Source of the DNA: Heliocidaris erythrogramma
Lineage: Eukaryota > Echinodermata > Echinoidea > Camarodonta > Echinometridae
NCBI GenBank assembly: GCA_025617745.1
Contig: CM046856.1
Location: 32,668,208 to 32,732,207, forward strand
Direction: 5' to 3'
DNA length: 64,000 bases
Positions 5,160-64,000 of this stretch are shown in pieces (positions within the stretch are counted from its first letter, which is position 1; every line of letters begins with the position of its first letter). The position numbers were made by a program, and so were the translations under genes. The notes under the pieces were generated by a model that worked only from the letters and a program-made list of their open reading frames with translations, did not search any database and was not told the DNA's origin.

Positions 5160-5640
5160 GACAATTTTAGTACACGACAAGTAGCCGAGGTTCACGTCAA
5201 GAATCGAAGTATATATCACCGATTTTACCTTGTACAGATCAAGAATAAATAAATAACTACTTTAGTACACGACCAGTAGCCGAGGTTCACGTCCAGAATC
5301 GAAGTATATATCACAAATTTGACCTTGTACGGATTGAGAATAAAGAAAAATAGTCCATCAGTTGCATAACCTCACATTAGTATATTCGTAAAGACAAACG
5401 TAAATACTAAGTATCTCATTATATTTGATATATTACCTTGTACAGATCAAGAATAAATAAATAACTACTTTAGTACACGACCAGTAGCCGAGGTTCACGT
5501 CCAGAATCGAAGTATATATCACAAATTTGACCTTGTACGGATTGAGAATAAAGAAAAATAGTCCATCAGTTGCATAACCTCACATTAGTATATTTGTAAA
5601 GACAAACGTAAATACTAAGTATCTCAGTTATATTTGATAT
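5160..5640. repeat. Tandem repeat, ~208 bp unit, about 2.3 copies
   Basis: The block TTTAGTACACGACCAGTAG, GAGGTTCACGTCCAGAATCG, ACCTTGTACGGATTGAG recurs with a 208-base period (for example ACCTTGTACAGATCAAG at 5227 and 5435). A third partial copy at the left is more diverged. Confidence 0.85.
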
Positions 5641-5925
5641 ACAGTATCACGTGGTAAGATCGGAAGCCTAGTATTTTTATATATACTTTTAATGAATGTA
5701 ACACCATAACATTGTTAGGATAGTTTGCTGAACTGCATCGGTGGTGTGGTTTGTCGAACTGCGATCATCTGATCATATTTATTTATACCTTTCTGTTTAT
5801 TTATATTTGAAGTTGTCTGAAGAAAATAAATGTAGTAAAGTCTAGAGTGCAAGAGTGAGAAAACATTAATACGAGATTGTGTTATTTTTTTTGGTTTTTT
5901 TTTGGGTATCATTTATTCTACCGCC

Positions 5926-26947: not shown

Positions 26948-27756
26948 ATCCCTCTCCAAAGAAAACATGAATATGAGAAGCTTTGCATTTGTTACTAGGA
27001 TTTTTTTCCACACACACAAAAATATGTTATTGAGAGCCAGTCTGTGTAAAAGTTTCTCTCTCAGCAGACGTGGCTGCCTTTTGAATTTACATTAATGTAA
27101 ATAATGCATGATAATATGTCGTATCATATGGAACATGGTTCATGGCTTTCATATGGATTGGGAAGTGACAAGATCAACGAAATGGTCCATTGTCATGTTG
27201 GTGATAGTGAAAAGAGTCCCCTTTTAGGCACTTGTTTTTCTTTCATGCCAATCATTTCCAATTGTTATAAAGGAAGGGGGAGGTTTCTATATACATGATT
27301 AACCTGAGTGTATTATGGTCGCAATGAAAAACTGTTCTCCACAGTTAAATTATTTTTTCTCTCTCATTAACCTAATGGTTTGTTGATAATTTATTCAAAG
27401 TCTGTCCATTACTTATTTAACTTTTACAAAGACGAGTGAGGATCAAATATGTAGCGAAGTGTGAGATTATAAAGAGCATTTCAAAGGGACAGGTGCGTTG
27501 AGTTTGTAAGTTTAATGGTTTGCTTTCATTTCCGTAATTAGCAAGTAAAATGCAATAATTGATTTTATATGATGAGAGAGGGTGGACGAGGGGTGGAGAG
27601 ACAAAAAGTACACTGACGTTTTATCTTCATGAGTTTTATTTTAGATAGAATATCCTACTGGGAAACATGTAATGTGATCAAGAACACTGCTTTGATAAAA
27701 TGGAGGGGTTTATTATGTTGGTTGAAATTGCCCGGCCAGACAGATAACACCGAATT
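26948..27756. other. No gene seen
   Basis: AT-rich. The 64-codon frame at 27104-27298 has no domain content. Confidence 0.45.
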
Positions 27757-28697
27757 CCCTGATAGCAGAAAGTGTTAAAAAATGACGTGATATTTACGTC
27801 GTGGTTTTCGTCTTTTTTACGTCCTGTAATTACGTCAAGAAGACGACAACTTGCACCAACGCAAGACGTCAAGAGGAAGTCTTATTTTGACGTCATCTCT
27901 ACGTCTTCATTCCTCTTCCCTGATAGCAGAAAGTGTTAAAAATGACGTGATATTTACGTCGCGGTTTTCGTCTTTTTTACGTCCTGTAATTACGTCAATA
28001 AGACGACAACTTGCACCAACGCAAGACGTCAAGAGGACGTCTTATTTTGACGTCATCTCTACGTCTTGTACACTGTAAAAACTAAAGTGCTACTTTTAGG
28101 GGCATGTATAGTGAGTGCACCTGAAATGCTGTTTATAGCACTTGTAGTGTGCTAATTTACCAGCAAAAAAAAAATGTGACCGTGGCGAGCCTCGGACCAG
28201 GTTCCGCTGATTGAGAGGCGCTGACGTTACCGATGGACTAACGAATGCTTCTTGCAATCCAGTTTAGTCATGGGAGTCAAGTAGATAACATGAACTATGT
28301 GGTGTCGTAAATTCACTATGTAACAATATGATCTGCTCTAAATCGTACAATGTGAGTTAGTCTAGCGGTAATGCCAGCAGTTCTCGATCAGCGGACCCTG
28401 GTTCGAAGCTCGCCCAAATCATTTTTTTAATGAATGTTTAGCAGTTTAAGGAGCCGGTCCAGCTCCCGTGAAAGTGCTGAAATAGCACTCTGAGTGCAGT
28501 CCCTATGCATGCCCTCAAAAAGTGCTATATACAGCACTTCAGTTTTTACAGTGTACAAATGACGTCAAAATAAGACGTCCTCTTGACGTCTTGCGTTGGT
28601 GCAAGTTGTCGTCTTATTGACGTAATTACAGGACGTAAAAAAGACGAAAACCACGACGTAAATATCACGTAATTTTTACCACTTTCTTCTATCAGGG
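27757..28697. mobile_element. ACGTC-rich inverted-repeat element, one arm duplicated, host to a second element
   Basis: Arms begin CCCTGATAGCAGAAAGTG (27757 and, after 161 bp, again at 27918). The right end closes with CACTTTCTTCTATCAGGG (28697). All three arms contain TTTACGTC..., CAACGCAAGACGTCAAGAGG and TGACGTCAT in matching order. The arms are therefore 140-160 bp, with the left arm tandemly duplicated. A TA-flanked element (28071-28553) sits between them. Confidence 0.8.
28071..28553. mobile_element. TA-flanked element carrying two divergent tRNA-like modules (copy 1)
   Basis: The ends CACTGTAAAAACT and AGTTTTTACAGTG are inverted and flanked by TA (28069-28070, 28554-28555). Inner arms both contain AGTGCT/AGCACT words and CATGCCC. 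Two tRNA-like modules point outward from the centre: one on the - strand (about 28245-28184) and one on the + strand (about 28352-28414: GTTAGTCTAGCGGTAATGCC and GGTTCGAAGCTCGCC). Another copy lies at 35294-35783 in reverse orientation. Confidence 0.8.
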
Positions 28698-29097
28698 TTA
28701 GTGTGTCCTATCATGGCAAGTATAAGTATTTGAAGGAAATTGTGAACTTAATTTGGTCTCATAGGCCATCGTTTACGCGCGCCAAGAAGAACACATCTTC
28801 ACACGATATTTATGATTTTGACCTACGTTGTGTGTCTAAATAATCATAGAATTTAAATCATAGACATGTTTAGCAGAGGAGTTCGGATTTCTTCACCCTT
28901 GATTTGGTTAGTCAGTTTAGACCAGATATCTTAAGCAGGAGTAAACGTTTACTTTACAGAGATAATCATGATAGTAATCATGATACCGAGGTTAACTTTA
29001 TATGCGTTATATGCAAATCACTGCCTCCAATGTCGTGCATGTTTACAGACACGAATATATACGCCACCATTGTTTCATGACATACGATCCGAGTCAT
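28698..29097. other. No gene seen upstream of SLCO gene 1
   Basis: AT-rich sequence without recognisable frame or repeat. Confidence 0.4.
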
Positions 29098-35066: not shown

Positions 35067-36028
35067 GTACTACTAGTAGTAGTAATACTCACTGGCGTAA
35101 ATCTGCAAGAATTTCTTTTCAACTCGGGGGGGGGGGGGGGGGGGGGTGACCATTCAAGGAGAAGAAAGCCACCCCCCCCCCCCCCCCTGATGAAAAGAAG
35201 GAATGTGCGGATTTACGCCAATGGTAATACTACCATTACTACTTCTACTACTCCACTATACTACAACTAATCTAACCACCACCAATATTACTACACTCTA
35301 AAAACTTAAGTGCTGTATATAACACTTTTTGAGGGCATGCATAGGGACTGCACTCAGAGTGCTATTGAATGCACTTTCACGGGAGCTGGACCGGCTCCTT
35401 AAACTGCTAAACATTCATTAAAAAAAATCGTGATTTTGGCGAGCCTCGAACCAGGGTCCGCTGATCGAGAATCGCTGGCATTACCGCTAGACTAACTCAC
35501 ATCGTACGATTTAGAGCCGATCATATTGTTACATATGGATTACGACACCGCATAGGTCATGTTATCTACTTGACTCCCATGACTAAACTGGATTGCAAGA
35601 AGCATTCGTTAGTCCATTGGTAACGTCAGCGCCTCTCAATCAGCGGAACCTGGTTCGAGGCTCGCCACGGTCACATTTTTTTTTTTTTGGCTAGTAAATT
35701 AGCACACTACAAGTGCTATAAACAGCATTTCAGGTGCAGTCACTATACATGCCCCTAAAAGTAGCACTTTAGTTTTTACAGTGTACTACTACTACTACTT
35801 CTAATCATATTACTATTACTACTAGTACTACTACTACTACTGCTGCTGCTACTACTACTACTACTACTTCTACTATTTCTACAACAACACTACTAGTAGT
35901 AGTACTATTACCATTACTACCACTGCTACTACTAGTACTACCACCACTGCTGCTACTACTTTTGATAATGCTACTACTGCTATAACTACTACATGTACTA
36001 CTACTACTACTACGACTACTACTACTGA

Positions 36029-36062
<34 letters not shown>

Positions 36063-39000
36063 GATATTAATAATAATAATAATACGACTATACATTTAAT
36101 TTTTTTTTAATCTCTCCAGGTATCATCGTTACACCATCAAGTTTTATAGGTGCTTTGTTTGGAGGATGGGTCGTGAAACATTATAACCTCAAATACCGCG
36201 GTATGATGCGTTTTACACTAGGTGTACTTATTTGCAGCTTTGCTTTCCAGTTCCTCTTCCTAATCGCTTGTGAAAACGTCGACTTCGCCGGCGTGACCGT
36301 AGAGTACGGGCGCACGTAAGTAGAAACCAGCTCCTTCTTCAAATGGATGTGTAACTATTGTTCATAAAATTACTTCTTTGAAATGATTATCGAAGAGAGG
36401 TCTAAGTGAAGAGGTCTGCTGAATATGATTTGGATAATCAAGTCATTATTTATGGGAATACAGTCGGAATTCACGGGCGGATTTAGGGGATGGGGGAGGC
36501 TGCACAAGCTACCCGTGCCCCAATTGAAAAGTCATTTTGCACACATTTGAGTTCTGGGAGAGGTGAAAATAATTTGTGAGCTTTCTCATTTTCTTTATGT
36601 CAGTTTGGAAGATAGTCATAGAATTGATGTCCTCTAAAAATGATTGCTCTTCAAAATGCCCTCATATTCGAATAGGACAACAAGGGCCGAAATATTCGGG
36701 CCAAACTTTCATACTAACATGTGTAGGTCCGCCATCATATTTCTCTCAGTAAAATGACTATATTATATTGACCATTTACTTTTATGTTATTTACGTATGT
36801 ATTTATTTTTGAAATGTAAATGTATGTCCATGAGAAATATGAAAATAAATGAAAATGAAATGAAATGAAAATGAATGAAGTAGTCCCATGTACCCATTTC
36901 TGTGTGCAACGCATATGTCCGCTCTCAGCAGGATTGACTCCCGCCCCCCCCCCCCCCCCCCCCCCCCTCGGAGGTCGAAGGGACCGTATGCGTGTTCCCC
37001 AAATCTCCGGTAAAGGGGTACTTTTTGGGCGACACAATCCGGCCCGTGAATTGTAAAAAAGGGGGTGTTTTTTATCTTTCACCCGGAGATTTCATTAAAA
37101 AAGGGGGTGTTTTTCTTTCTCTCTCTCTCTCTCTTCGACACCTGAGAAATTAAAAAAGGGGGGTTATGAAATATCTTGAAAAATTGATCAAATCCCAGGA
37201 TCAAATTCCTGAAATTCCTGCTAGTTTTGATAGCTCATTCAGCCAGGATTATTTCATTTTGAAAAGTAGAAACACTGGCCCCCAGTCCCACCCAGTCCTC
37301 CCTCGATTGTAATGACAGCTTACTTGGGAGGGGAGTTGGTGTCTGTCCTGAGATATGGGGTTGGAATGAGAGCTCACCTGAGATAGGGGGGTACATTGAG
37401 CAGTGTTCTGAATTTAGGGGGGTCTCCAAGGCAGGAAAAGCCCGCGCAAAGCCCGCGATAGGGGGGTTCAGAAATTTTGGCAGCCCTGAGGTAGGGGGGT
37501 GCTTTCAAAGGGAGGGAACAAGCATACGCGTACCCTAAATAATACTGAGGGGGGGGGGGGGGGGGGGGCCGGGGATTGAAACAATTTCTTCTCATTTCGG
37601 TAATACCCAAACCTTATAGCATGCACCAATTCTTATATATAATCAGCCTATCCCAACTGCTTCCAGACGTTTCATTTCACAAAATAATCGCATGACACGC
37701 AACCCCGTCTAAAAAAAATATGCGCCCCTCAGTTTCAAGTTTAAGTTTGTAAAAAAAAAAGAGGGGGGGGGGGGGGGACGTTGTCCAAATCCTTACCGTG
37801 ATTCCAACTATACAAATGTCGATCTTCATTCCAACGCCATCTCGGTATCTATAGTGGGCTACACCATAAAGTGTTAAAATAACACCAGTTTCGAATCGAA
37901 CTGGATTGTTTTTAACACTTATCTCGTGTAGCCCAATACCAAACTGGTGTTTTTAAACATATTTCTGGTGTAGCCCAATATTGATGGTGTTGAATTAACA
38001 CCCTGTTGTTGTTTTTTTGCAGTGTGCTGTTGCAGAAAGCATAAGGCTCAATACATTTCTCTCCTAAATTATAGCCAGCTATAAGTCTTTGTAAAGAGTC
38101 ACAATTGAAGCATTGATCTTGATTGACAATCGTATGGCTTACTCCCCTCATTTTTTTTTTAACAGATTGCTATGGTAAGTTTAAAAATTAAGATGTAATC
38201 AATTTCGATTTTCTTTCCTTGTGTTTTTAGCCCTGGGGACATCGCGCCAGAAGACGGCTCAAACGTCACAGCAATCTGCAACGGAGACTGCAAGTGTACT
38301 AATAACTTCCAACCCCTCTGCGGTGAAGACCAAGTCATGTACTACTCTGCATGTCATGCAGGTTGTTCTGTCAAAGACATCAATGAAGACTCAATATCAG
38401 TAAGAATGTTTGATATTAATTGATTATATCCTATGACTCCATGATCACAGAGTTTTTAAAAGAAATCAACCTTAGGGCATTTTCAGTATTAAACCCAGTG
38501 CATCATTTAATTATTAAAATATGCGAACATTTCATTGACGTGTTATATAATCCAAGCGTCATTCCTATTGACATTTCAGTGCAGCTTTATTGAAAGTCTT
38601 TGCGATCAACTTATTATGGTACATGGCACTTAACCCATAGACTACTGGGGAGCGTTTCATCAAGCGTTTTGTCAGTGATTTTACCGACAACTGTTATAAG
38701 GTACTGAAATCCTTGCGTCTGATTAGCTGAGAGCAAATTTGTTGGTAAAAATCACTGACAAGACATTTGATGAAACACTCCCCTGAATTCTCTCGTTCCC
38801 ATAGGCTTGATACAGAAACTATCCGATTCCAGGGGAGCGTTTCATCAAGCGTTTTGTTAGTGATTTTTACTGACAAATTTGCTCTCAGTCAATCAGATGC
38901 AAGGATTTCAGTAGCTTATACTAGTTTTCGGTAAAAATCACTGACAAAACGCTTGATGAAACGCTCCCCAGTAGCCAATGGATTAATAGCTAAAAATGAA

Positions 39001-61200: not shown

Positions 61201-64000
61201 AGATGCCTGTGGCGATGAAGTAATCGGTGGCGGCCTCCAGAGAGAGGAAAAGGAAAGGGACGTTGCTGAGGACCTTGACGAGGGCCCGAGGAGCGTCACG
61301 TATCGAGTTACCAAGTCCCGGTCGACTCACGAACTCGCTACCCTTCTGCCCTTGACGACGACGCTCACGCTGATTCTTTTTCATTCCTTACAAGGGAAGA
61401 GGGGGAATGAGATAGAGAGAGAGGGGAGGGGGAGAGGGGAGAGAGTGGGAGAAAGAGAGAGAGATGGACAAAAGAGAGAGAGAGAGAGAGAGATGGGAAG
61501 GGATCGAGAGGGAGAGAGAGTGTGAGAGAAAAAATGAGTGAGTGAAAGAGACGGAGATGGGCATTTAGACAGGGAAAAAAAACATATACACGGTATGAAA
61601 TACAATCAACAACCGAAGGTTTTGTCTACCATGTATAAACATATGAGGCAAAGTATATCTATACGTTCAACTGTTCATCTTTATCTAACTTCGCTTATTT
61701 CACCATCTTGTCTCACTATGACATTAAGATGGACGTGTTGCATTCATTATGTGATAACATTACAAATATGGAATTTAAACTACATTTACAAATATGGAAT
61801 TTAAACTATATTTAAAAGGAACCAGTCAAACATTTATTTGAATCGAACTATAAAACAAGACCGTATTCCCACAAATAAGTATGTACAAACATTCTTTAAT
61901 TTTTCACACAAAAAATATTGATTTATCTTTAATATAGACTTTTTCTCTTTGTGTTGAGATCATAAGAAGGAGGCGCAATGGTTCAGTGGTGGAGGAGTGG
62001 ACTCGTAACTGGAGGACCCGTGTTCGAAACCAAGGGGATGCAATAGTGCCCTTTGGTAAGGCATAAATAATCACTATCAAGTCCCTCGGAGAGGACTTAA
62101 ATCCGTCGGTCCCCTGGTTATTAGTTACAAGTATACACATGCTTTCTTAGCAGTCAGGTAAAATGGACCATCACACCATCAAACCATCAAACTAAACAAT
62201 AGTTACCTGGTAGTGCTTTCGGGAAAGCCATGATTGCAAATGCTGATAGAGAGATGAGGCTGGCACTGATAAGGAATCCCAGCCACCATGCACCTACCCA
62301 CAGAGGGTTGTCTGGAGTGATAGTTACGCTGAATACAAAACAAAACGAATGCCCAGTTTCATAACATGGTACAAATAAATGCAATATCTAAAACATCCTG
62401 TACATACGAAAACGAATGTCCGATTATTTCATAACATAGTAAATGATATCTATATATTCAGTGACGTGTAAATAATCTATGTCAAAACGTTATCAATAAT
62501 GATTAGATGAAAAGTAACTTATAAATCATAACTTAACATATACATTTAGTAAGTTACTATTATTTTGATCATCAATTTGATACGCTGCACTTATACAAAC
62601 AGTTATGTTGAACAAATTATAATTATATACAGTAAAACCTGTATATAGAGACCGCTCAAAGGAGACAAGAAATGCGGTCTTCACAAACAGATGGTCTTAG
62701 TGTACAGGTTCCTTTAATACAGATTTCATTAAGAAACACTGTTCAAGAGAAACAAAACTTGTGGTCTCTATATAGACAGGTGGTCTTTCTATGCAGGTGG
62801 TCACTGCAGCAGGTTTGACTGTATTTCATCTTCATTGGGGTTTCGTCTGTTGAGAGTGGGAAGAGTGTTATGCAATCTTTGGTGATATTTCTGATTACAT
62901 GCCAAACTGTGTTACGATCAATAAAACCATAAAAATATATATTTCTTTGGGAGAAATTTGAAAAAAAATGTAAAAAAAATGTAAATATCCAAAAGTAAAT
63001 AGTGAATACATAGTGAGGAAATCACGTCATCGCTATAAAATAATGGCAAATTATAACCATATCACTATTTCATATTCGAGGTCTGATTTTTCTCAAATAA
63101 AGGCTTTAATTCATTCTTTTCTTTCAGTTTACTCCTTTCGTGTTCTCAACAGAGGATCCTTTTTTTCTTTTATTTGCTGTTTTTACCTGGAAATATCAGC
63201 GTAGAAGTCTGTATGAAGGGAGAGCGTAATGACCCCGATGAAGTAGCCTATAGCTGGTCCAAAGCTCATCAATGCGTTGAATATACCTACGTGGGAGAGA
63301 TGTGCTTAGGTAAAGTCATCATCACAAAAACAATCATCATCACAAAAAAAACCTATCTAGAATTTTATTGAGGGGGGTGCGGACATTATATGAGGTGGAC
63401 CTTATTGAGGGAGCGATGTCAAGCGGACCTATGGTCACTAGCAGGGGGGGGGGTATATATAGGCACCCCTCGCACCCCCCCCCCGCAACGGACCTGTATG
63501 GTCTAATATTCTCAATCTTTTATTATCATTATAGGCCTCTGCACCTTGCTTTCTACATCCGATTTGATAACTCACGTAGTAGAAAAAAACAAAAACATTA
63601 TAGTCCCTACAAATGGATTGTAATTACCAATTCATTCCCACCGTTGTTCTGTTGGTAATTATTTTTAAATGTTTAACTGTCATATTCAACTCTTAAAAAT
63701 CATAGACTTTGTCTTGGCGTTGTGGCGTGCGCCCCTGTAATCCAGCTACCAGTGGAAGTTATAAACTGATTCAGCGGACCTAGGTTCGAGACTGAGTCAG
63801 TCTTTCGGATGGTGACGTTAAAGGTCGGTCCCAGACGTAAATAATCATATCTGATTGATACACGTCTGTACAAACCCAATTACACACACATACCCATGTA
63901 TAAACCGAAATTTTTGGTTGAGAGGTTGTCATCCATGTACGTCAAGCCGAGGGTGAAGACCGGCGCGGAGGCGAGGCTGTTGAATATCTGAGCCAAGATG
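55268..64000 (-). CDS. SLCO4A1-like: Organic anion transporter (OATP), SLCO4A1-like paralogue, 5' end beyond window
   Basis: Exons in transcript order: 64000-63894 (partial), 63286-63187, 62328-62207, 61386-61132, 59023-58828, 58418-58250, 57450-57230, 56353-56289, 55539-55268 (stop TGA at 55270-55268). They give 501 residues in one frame with GT-AG introns throughout. They correspond to exons 3-11 of the + strand gene with the same phase at every junction; the exons of 65, 122, 169 and 196 nt match exactly in length. Seen: FTLGLTYMDDN in the first exon; [25 protein letters not shown] ahead of the next transmembrane pair; a Kazal-like loop with CGEDNVMYFSPCHAGC; and the ending PTREL. It is tail to tail with the first gene, so a duplication origin is inferred. 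It has diverged strongly from its neighbour, so substrate preference may differ. The missing N-terminal third should lie just to the right. Confidence 0.93.
55592..55812 (-). mobile_element. Head-truncated copy of the CTCTCCACCCAGGTG SINE in the last intron of SLCO gene 2
   Basis: The + strand reads TATAGCGCATATCAC, then CCCTGGCTTTAGCTCCGGC, then GGTACCCATTTACTACACC and GAGTGGCAAATGTG. This is the same order as in the SINE at 23345-23643. The tRNA-like head is missing, so the copy stops near 55812. It sits just upstream of the terminal coding exon in transcript order and does not disturb its acceptor at 55540-55541. Confidence 0.75.
56846..57030. mobile_element. ~185 bp MITE with CGATAA-repeat tips, intron of SLCO gene 2
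   Basis: TAAGGGCTGGTCACATTAGT on the left and the inverted ATGTGACCAGCCCTTA on the right, each followed inward by GATAAC repeats (four copies on the left, two on the right). No coding content. Confidence 0.8.
57655..57933. mobile_element. GCGTCA-rich MITE (plus a truncated neighbour), intron of SLCO gene 2
   Basis: TTAACCTGGCTCACACGAGG, GCGTCAGTACCTGCGC, TTTTTAAACGATATCGTAC, GTCCTTACGTCAGCAAATGA and the end CTTGGCTTAA. It is inverted relative to 32859-33076. A truncated related piece (GACGCAATCGAAATGGC) precedes it at about 57660-57725. Confidence 0.7.
59150..60005 (-). pseudogene. 3' fragment of a second non-LTR retrotransposon, decayed, in an SLCO gene 2 intron
   Basis: On the - strand, remnants read SKTVSMLFGNRHML, ESFKYRGVFIDKELKWNVHI (a post-RT FLG-like motif), PHFGYADII, LTTRQREHIYVMMFKVLNNL (59745-59257 frame) and LSLPRPKTSSCKRTFFYRG. 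This is the C-terminal region typical of LINE pol proteins, with stop codons, frame changes and an internal deletion. It differs from the element at 22840-25503 and probably belongs to another clade. The intron is otherwise spliced normally. Confidence 0.8.
59307..59323. repeat. Poly-C tract inside the LINE fragment
   Basis: About 17 C interrupted from neighbouring CCCCA words. It disrupts the frame of the retrotransposon remnant. Confidence 0.8.
60028..60081. repeat. AAT microsatellite
   Basis: ATAATAATAATAAT words split by ACATGTA. Confidence 0.85.
60225..60745. mobile_element. GCGTCA-rich MITE copies, intron of SLCO gene 2
   Basis: The better copy is 60527-60745 (TTAAGCTTGGTGAGAG, GATTGCGTCAGTACC, TTTTTAAACGATATCAC, GGTCCTAACGTCAGTAAATG, AAGCCGGGCTTTAG). 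A more decayed copy occupies about 60225-60440. Confidence 0.65.
61396..61560. repeat. GA-rich microsatellite next to an SLCO gene 2 exon
   Basis: GAGAGAGAG and GGGGAGAGG blocks begin about 10 bases from the acceptor of the exon 61386-61132. On the transcribed strand this is a CT-rich tract that can serve as a long polypyrimidine tract. Confidence 0.85.
61966..62162 (+). mobile_element. tRNA-headed SINE in the matching intron of SLCO gene 2
   Basis: The + strand shows GGCGCAATGGTTCAGTGGTG (box A side), GTGTTCGAAACC (box B), CCCTTTGGTAAGGCATAAAT, and the end TGCTTTCTTAGCAGTCAGG. It lies about 44 bases past the donor of the WVGAWW exon and is antisense to the gene. It is the counterpart of 34158-34336. 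Confidence 0.75.
62628..62821. mobile_element. Probable MITE with ACAGTAAAACCTG-type ends, intron of SLCO gene 2
   Basis: ACAGTAAAACCTGTATATAG on the left and CAGGTTTGACTGT on the right, both bordered by TA, with inner GGTCTCTATATAG and CTATATAGACAGG words. No coding content. Confidence 0.6.
63287..63704. other. Intron of SLCO gene 2: no gene seen
   Basis: Contains G/C tracts at about 63444-63453 and 63475-63484 and a CATCATCACAAAAA duplication near 63314-63350. The 96-codon + frame here is not supported. Confidence 0.45.
63705..63896 (+). mobile_element. SINE with 7SL-like 5' head, abutting a splice donor of SLCO gene 2
   Basis: The head TTGGCGTTGTGGCGTGCG, CCTGTAATCCAGCTACC resembles the first 40 or so bases of SRP (7SL) RNA. 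A box-B-like GGTTCGAGAC follows, then TTTCGGATGGTGACGTTAAA and a tail ending in ACACACACATAC. A second copy in the opposite orientation is at 49768-49949. The CA-rich tail, read on the - strand, forms GTATGTGTGTG immediately after the exon ending at 63894. That makes the intron donor part of the repeat, or directly beside it. Confidence 0.65.

Follow-up and report, generated by a model that had tools for sequence, protein, structure and literature searches.

The 483-bp palindromic element at 28071-28553 does not stand by itself: a second, outer element encloses it on both sides, and together the two make up a larger composite transposon, with the 483-bp element as its core (Table 1). The window, meaning the whole 64,000-nucleotide stretch of Heliocidaris erythrogramma DNA analysed here, had been described from its sequence alone, and the composite around the core is new relative to that original prediction. 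We consider it likely that a MITE with a captured SINE or tRNA fragment, doubled by inversion, became nested in a second MITE and was then mobilised with it as a composite.

Table 1. Coordinates of the composite element, its core (e1) and the second copy of the core (e2) in the window.
Feature	Position	Strand	Basis or remark
Left target duplication of composite, TT	27755-27756	.	
Composite mobile element (outer + core), ends CCCTGATAGCAG / CTTCTATCAGGG	27757-28697	.	Ends and flanks at 24 loci
Left outer arm, two tandem units of ~160 bp, the second from 27918	27757-28068	+	TRF
TA, left flank of core	28069-28070	.	
Core palindromic MITE, copy e1, 483 bp	28071-28553	.	Self-alignment, shuffles, genome search
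Terminal inverted repeat CACTGTAAAAACT	28071-28083	+	Observed in window
T-run after left module (A10 on + strand), Pol III terminator-like	28165-28174	-	
Left tRNA-like module	28184-28242	-	Box A 28240-28229, box B 28198-28188
Right tRNA-like module	28356-28414	+	Box A 28358-28369, box B 28400-28410
T7 run after right module, Pol III terminator-like	28422-28428	+	
Terminal inverted repeat, reverse complement of CACTGTAAAAACT	28541-28553	-	Observed in window
TA, right flank of core	28554-28555	.	
Right outer arm, one inverted unit	28556-28697	-	96% identical to left unit in reverse
Right target duplication of composite, TT	28698-28699	.	
Second copy e2, solo	35294-35783	-	TA at 35292-35293 and 35784-35785; beside TAC repeat
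Right-type module of e2, box A to box B	35442-35494	-	
Left-type module of e2, box A to box B	35610-35662	+	

The TA-flanked element with inverted ends that had been proposed is present: e1 opens with CACTGTAAAAACT, closes with its reverse complement and has TA on both sides. The reverse complement of e1 aligns to e1 itself, and the local alignment of one half to the other scores 80, compared with at most 26 in 1000 shuffles; the palindrome is far beyond chance. The core consensus (482 bp, with perfect 13-bp ends) is likewise a long palindrome, and on folding forms one long hairpin. A stop-to-stop listing gives no reading frame of 110 or more amino acids at 28071-28553. The core therefore has the hallmarks of a MITE, being short, without coding capacity, bounded by terminal inverted repeats, present in many copies and flanked by a target duplication of fixed size. 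Among 38 distinct full-length solo copies, 28 have TA at both edges, which bears out the proposed DNA-transposon chassis. A TA target duplication is that of Tc1/mariner elements, and superfamilies other than Tc1/mariner are also described as using it (excerpts of PMC12730594). Longer patterns for the ends and the module gave no match in IMG/VR and prokaryote contigs; the 15-base pattern matches from that search were discarded as chance loci without a match to e1 at E 0.01.

Between the inverted ends lie the two predicted tRNA-like modules, pointing outward from the centre, so that each half reads, from centre to end, box A (TAGTCYAKYGGTAA), box B (GGTTCGA), T-run, arm and end. In the right module box A is TAGTCTAGCGGTAA and box B GGTTCGAAGCT; in the left module box A is TAGTCCATCGGTAA and box B is GGTCCGAGGCT, one base off, the family consensus being GGTTCGAGGCT. 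The distance from the start of box A to the start of box B is 42 in all four modules of e1 and e2, compared with 43 in the tRNA-Thr gene and 44 in the tRNA-derived SINE of the window, and in both halves the T-run follows at about the distance found in tRNA genes. With both strands counted, a shuffled 64-kb window yields on average 0.27 box pairs at the mismatch level of the right module (1,1), and 21.4 and 1.3 pairs at the levels of the left modules of e1 (2,2) and e2 (2,1); at these chance rates the boxes by themselves are no more than suggestive.

Box A and box B are present in the modules at a spacing that may point to a SINE head, and the cloverleaf that a tRNA gene would require is lacking by ARAGORN, Rfam or folding. 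ARAGORN reports no tRNA at either module, and the Rfam tRNA model has no match there up to E 10. The Rfam result has little weight because the model also missed a plain tRNA-derived SINE (~23645-23570), and it was set aside as a test of the modules. Nor do the core copies resemble SINEs as whole elements: in place of a LINE-type 3' tail, retrotransposition and the absence of inverted ends, they are bounded by inverted ends and TA, and the run that follows each module on its sense strand is of T and is not a 3' A-tail. The control SINE occupies window positions ~23645-23342 (-), has a (TTA)n tail and sits between two LINE-like reverse-transcriptase frame pieces.

The second copy in the window, e2, keeps both modules, as had been noted; e1 in reverse aligns to it with 462 of 481 aligned bases identical and 19 mismatched, and with 11 gap columns. 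To survey the family, 1.06 Gb in 26 contigs was searched with e1 (best 40 of 251 candidates scored) and with e2 (best 40 of 1358). After 10 exact-duplicate cores and 5 copies without an end or arm were dropped from 95 rows, these similarity searches provided 80 distinct full-length cores, not all of them independent, since L168, L172 and L177 are one duplicated locus. A separate position sample comprised 40 loci among the listed junction-pattern places on contigs 1 and 2.

Of the 80 similarity-picked cores, 75 carry both modules with a T-run behind each (at most two substitutions in box A, at most one in box B, at least five T), and 49 have all four boxes letter-exact. In the position sample both modules occur in 34 of 40 copies under a looser test that allowed three substitutions in box A and two in box B, did not require a T-run and used the whole stretch where the right end was missing (L223, L231, L237 and L252 were counted as having both). 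The remaining six lack the right module (L217, L247), the left (L230, L238, L246) or both (L243). The paired arrangement is thus a family feature as predicted, and a family made up mostly of single-module copies is not what we found. L230 and L238 are near-identical composites on two contigs in which the left box B is deleted; they share 10 of 10 bases outside the right end of the composite and are therefore probably one duplicated locus, for which reason we dropped them as a candidate young subfamily and excluded them as evidence.

Solo cores account for 38 of the 80. TA flanks 28 of these on both sides, four on one side and six on neither, and no flanking sequence is shared among them except by L168, L172 and L177, which belong to the ten solos without TA on both sides. 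The other 42 cores, e1 included, share the outer sequence and the junction with it, give or take point changes, whereas the DNA that flanks the composites differs from one to the next. The outer sequence runs in opposite orientations on either side of the core, with one to three units of ~160 bp in the left arm and a single unit in the right arm, and has CCCTGATAGCAG ends; across 24 loci the left outer arm measures 153-474 bp. Bases flanking the composite match at 22 of the 24 loci, or at 21 of 23 once L140, which duplicates L139, is set aside. The match is 2 bp of varied sequence at 21 loci and 8 bp within a repeat at L133, and there is none at L122 and L124. On duplication length alone (2 bp at 21 of 24 loci) the outer element would fit the CMC (CACTA/Mirage/Chapaev) superfamily, for which excerpts of PMC4482050 give target duplications of 2-4 bp. 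Elsewhere in the window, a long hairpin at 38826-38975, perhaps another small palindromic transposon, resembles Rfam MIR2606 at 66.7 bits, below the cut-off of 139.7, and two-copy tandem repeats, exact or near-exact, occupy 200-531 (165 bp) and 5225-5641 (208 bp).

Allowing at most one mismatch, the junction pattern of the composite has 1728 matches genome-wide and the outer-end pattern 4522, with none for either reversed control. An empty outer site had no match in the same kind of genome pattern search (at most one mismatch), and core sequence, in some cases truncated, was present in 12 of 12 outer elements sampled on contig 1, which were picked from those without a listed perfect junction. 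An earlier separate life of the outer element is something we infer, since no core-free outer element was found.

How core and outer element came together was addressed with a tree of 111 cores (38 solos and 73 composites). Left out of it, and of the box test on 31 composites described below, were L217, L223, L231, L237, L243, L247 and L252, with lengths outside 460-520 bp, and L230 and L238, as diverged. All 73 composites and five of the 38 solos fall in one supported group of 78 (96/86), and 69 of the 73 composites form a solo-free group at weaker support (84/39). The solo and composite labels need four changes on the tree, compared with about 32 when they are shuffled. The shared junction and the tree support a single founding event, an insertion of the core into the outer element that we grade as likely; that the solo element is older than the composite is probable rather than proven. 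Neither is put more strongly because the tree is rooted at its midpoint and its bootstrap had not settled. The midpoint root also leaves room for the reverse order, in which the composite came first and the solos are inner parts that escaped later by their TA-flanked ends, as does the lack of core-free outer elements both in the empty-site search and among the 12 sampled. We nevertheless think that order unlikely, as the core within the composite has TA to its left and right, just as an insertion would leave it, the solos surround the composites in the drawn tree, and they are the more diverse, with a median divergence from their own consensus of 2.3% compared with 1.3% for composite cores, in two sets that were picked differently. 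Against the nested-MITE reading itself stand the absence of TA from at least one side of 10 of the 38 solos and, for its tRNA-like parts, an A/B match close to chance level for a window and the exactness of all four boxes in only 49 of the 80 cores.

The origin of the modules turns on their resemblance to resident repeats and on the symmetry of the core. In the right module, the half that contains box B, TCAGCGGACCCTGGTTCGAGGCT, shares 21 of 23 bases with a 7SL-headed SINE resident in the genome, which no shuffle of 1000 equals; the match (19 and 18) also exceeds those of all 4101 stretches of the window that lie outside the elements and the copies of that SINE (11 and 13 at best). In the left module it is the 3' part that shares 16 of 19 bases with the head of the tRNA-derived SINE, again better than all 1000 shuffles, at a score reached by five of the 4101 stretches, that SINE itself included. 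By comparison, the matches of the right module to the tRNA-derived SINE head and to the tRNA-Thr gene are equalled by 40 and 37 of 1000 shuffles, and the SINE and tRNA comparisons in the window reveal no source for the box A half. A module-only search, a weak negative because it passes over very common words, found no free source SINE: each of the 30 places fetched from its 36 candidates contains sequence of this MITE family. These last results, together with the missing cloverleaf and the rate at which box pairs of right-module quality arise by chance, are what one would expect if the modules were not derived from a tRNA or SINE at all, and were a box A/B look-alike in an ordinary MITE, doubled only by the palindrome. 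We find this doubtful, given the two matches just described and the presence of tRNA spacing and a T-run in both halves.

In the solo consensus the ends of the two halves agree at 13 of 13 positions, their B boxes at 11 of 11, their A boxes at 10 of 12 and the stretches between the boxes at 23 of 30; the arms agree at 65 of 84 positions and take up 29 gap columns. The halves are collinear through module, T-run, arm and end, for which the simplest explanation is that a single ancestral half was duplicated as an inverted copy of itself. A history of independent SINE captures into each of the two arms would find some encouragement upstream of box A, where the halves align poorly (28 of 37, with 37 gap columns); with module, T-run distance, arm and end collinear and similar in both halves, such a history seems extremely improbable. 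In the variants L175 and L178 a right-type arm stands at both ends and the left module is retained, and the halves have therefore exchanged sequence. The original prediction had offered SINE capture twice or a palindromic SINE-derived MITE; the former fits worse, and the latter, broadened to a SINE/tRNA-derived MITE, is favoured by the collinearity of the halves and by the likeness of the B-box half to a resident SINE.

A 7SL origin of the modules was considered and rejected because shuffles match the 7SL gene as well as the right and left modules do (378 and 189 of 1000) and because the shared B-box half belongs to the non-7SL part of the SINE. That SINE merits description in its own right. 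Copies lie at 49951-49780 (-) and 63713-63884 (+) in the window and at L148:3177-3349 and L149:2442-2615. The match starts at the first base of the 7SL gene, and in its first 46 alignment columns has 42 identities, 2 mismatches and 2 gaps relative to the 5' end of the animal's own 7SL gene; beyond the 7SL part come a non-7SL part with box B and then the body. A strict pattern for the fusion has 2834 matches genome-wide and none in the control. Copies also occur in rows, at G000:C1:7720558-7721337 and C1:25604380-25604626, the former with five copies at 181-bp spacing, as if a tandem array had arisen from the SINE. The 7SL RNA genes themselves (best 26 of 11405 candidates scored) include a cluster at G000:C16:41.24-41.72 Mb that holds 12 of at least 18 above-cut-off genes, mostly ~2 kb apart. 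The hagfish 7SL SINE family is presented in excerpts of PMC7245038 (2020) as the first evident one outside Euarchontoglires, and the 7SL-headed SINE described here, of a kind absent from the matches listed in open-licence literature, may represent a further independent origin.

We found little to suggest that the modules work. Boxes better conserved than the rest of the element, as the original prediction anticipated, were seen in none of the sets tested: random windows were as low in substitution as the boxes in 2295 of 5000 draws for solos, 2407 of 5000 for composites, 983 of 10000 for the 31 position-sampled composites and 7016 of 10000 for all 111 cores, and leaving out CpG-type columns did not change the result. 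The power of this test is limited because the copies differ so little from their consensus (medians of 1.3% and 2.3%, as above). Transcripts reading outward through the ends, also anticipated, are unlikely, since T-runs separate the modules from the ends and Pol III would probably terminate there, before leaving the element; a run of at least five T lies beyond box B in 76 of the 80 right modules and in 79 of the 80 left ones. At low power, then, sequence comparison gives no apparent sign that the tRNA-like parts are kept for function.

The modules might still be working divergent Pol III units, yielding RNAs of ~70 nt from upstream of box A to the T-run that would aid the element, through open chromatin and transposase access, or the host. 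Box A, box B, spacing and T-run are retained in the 75 of 80 copies although the cloverleaf is gone, and in position-sampled composites substitution is 0.0077 in the boxes compared with 0.0133 in the rest. With the difference between boxes and random windows not significant in any set, we judge working units to be decidedly unlikely. Going further, two divergent, terminated Pol III units could, by transcription from the centre of the palindrome, open the hairpin or extrude it and in this way link Pol III activity to DNA transposition, the outer transposon having multiplied by adopting the core; this we regard as very improbable.

The nesting history that we favour would thus begin with a non-autonomous DNA transposon whose target is TA and whose sequence is a long imperfect palindrome between CACTGTAAAAACT ends. 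Both of its arms would hold a decayed tRNA- or SINE-like piece, in which boxes A and B keep the tRNA spacing and a T-run follows; this piece would most likely have been captured once and doubled by inverted copying of one half. A solo copy would then have inserted at a TA within another palindromic MITE, with CCCTGATAGCAG ends and 2-bp target duplications, and the founder, mobilised by its outer ends, would have given rise to about 1,700 composites, of which that around 28071-28553 is one. The tRNA-like modules would be passengers.

Such an element is a high-copy transposon built by nesting, in which the compound is common and the free outer element was not seen where we looked, and through which SINE-head-like sequence has been spread in hairpin form by DNA transposition. 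Repeat annotation could easily call it a SINE, a tRNA pseudogene or two unrelated MITEs. Its parts have several counterparts among known systems. Foldback or TU elements carry tandem units in long inverted arms, and the outer arm, with its variable number (1 to 3) of ~160-bp units, is likened to them by description; unlike theirs, its unit number varies in the left arm only (24 loci). Inverted-repeat SINEs of Xenopus were reportedly described by Unsal and Morgan in 1995. MITEs with tRNA or Pol III parts are absent from the matches listed in open-licence literature. Excerpts of PMC2872659 describe CMITE-IN of Acropora corals, in which a small proto-element harbours a complete MITE and the two travel together as a new element; the composite resembles it in being a MITE nested in a small element and mobile together with it. 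CMITE-IN has TTAA ends, direct repeats and an estimated ~70 copies in one species, and a likely insert-free proto-element was found for it (PMC2872659), whereas none was found here; the composite, in contrast, has a TA core, 2-bp outer duplications, inverted arms with tandem units, tRNA-like modules and 1728 junction matches. MER6/MER6A of mammals, a Tc1/mariner-type MITE with V-SINE sequence according to excerpts of PMC6887750, is likewise a case of SINE-derived sequence spread by a TA-flanked MITE. MER6 keeps the SINE body and tail without the RNA-related head, whereas the core has a head-like piece only, in both arms. The element described here combines a nested MITE with SINE-derived sequence spread by a TA MITE, and adds to them paired box A/B modules.
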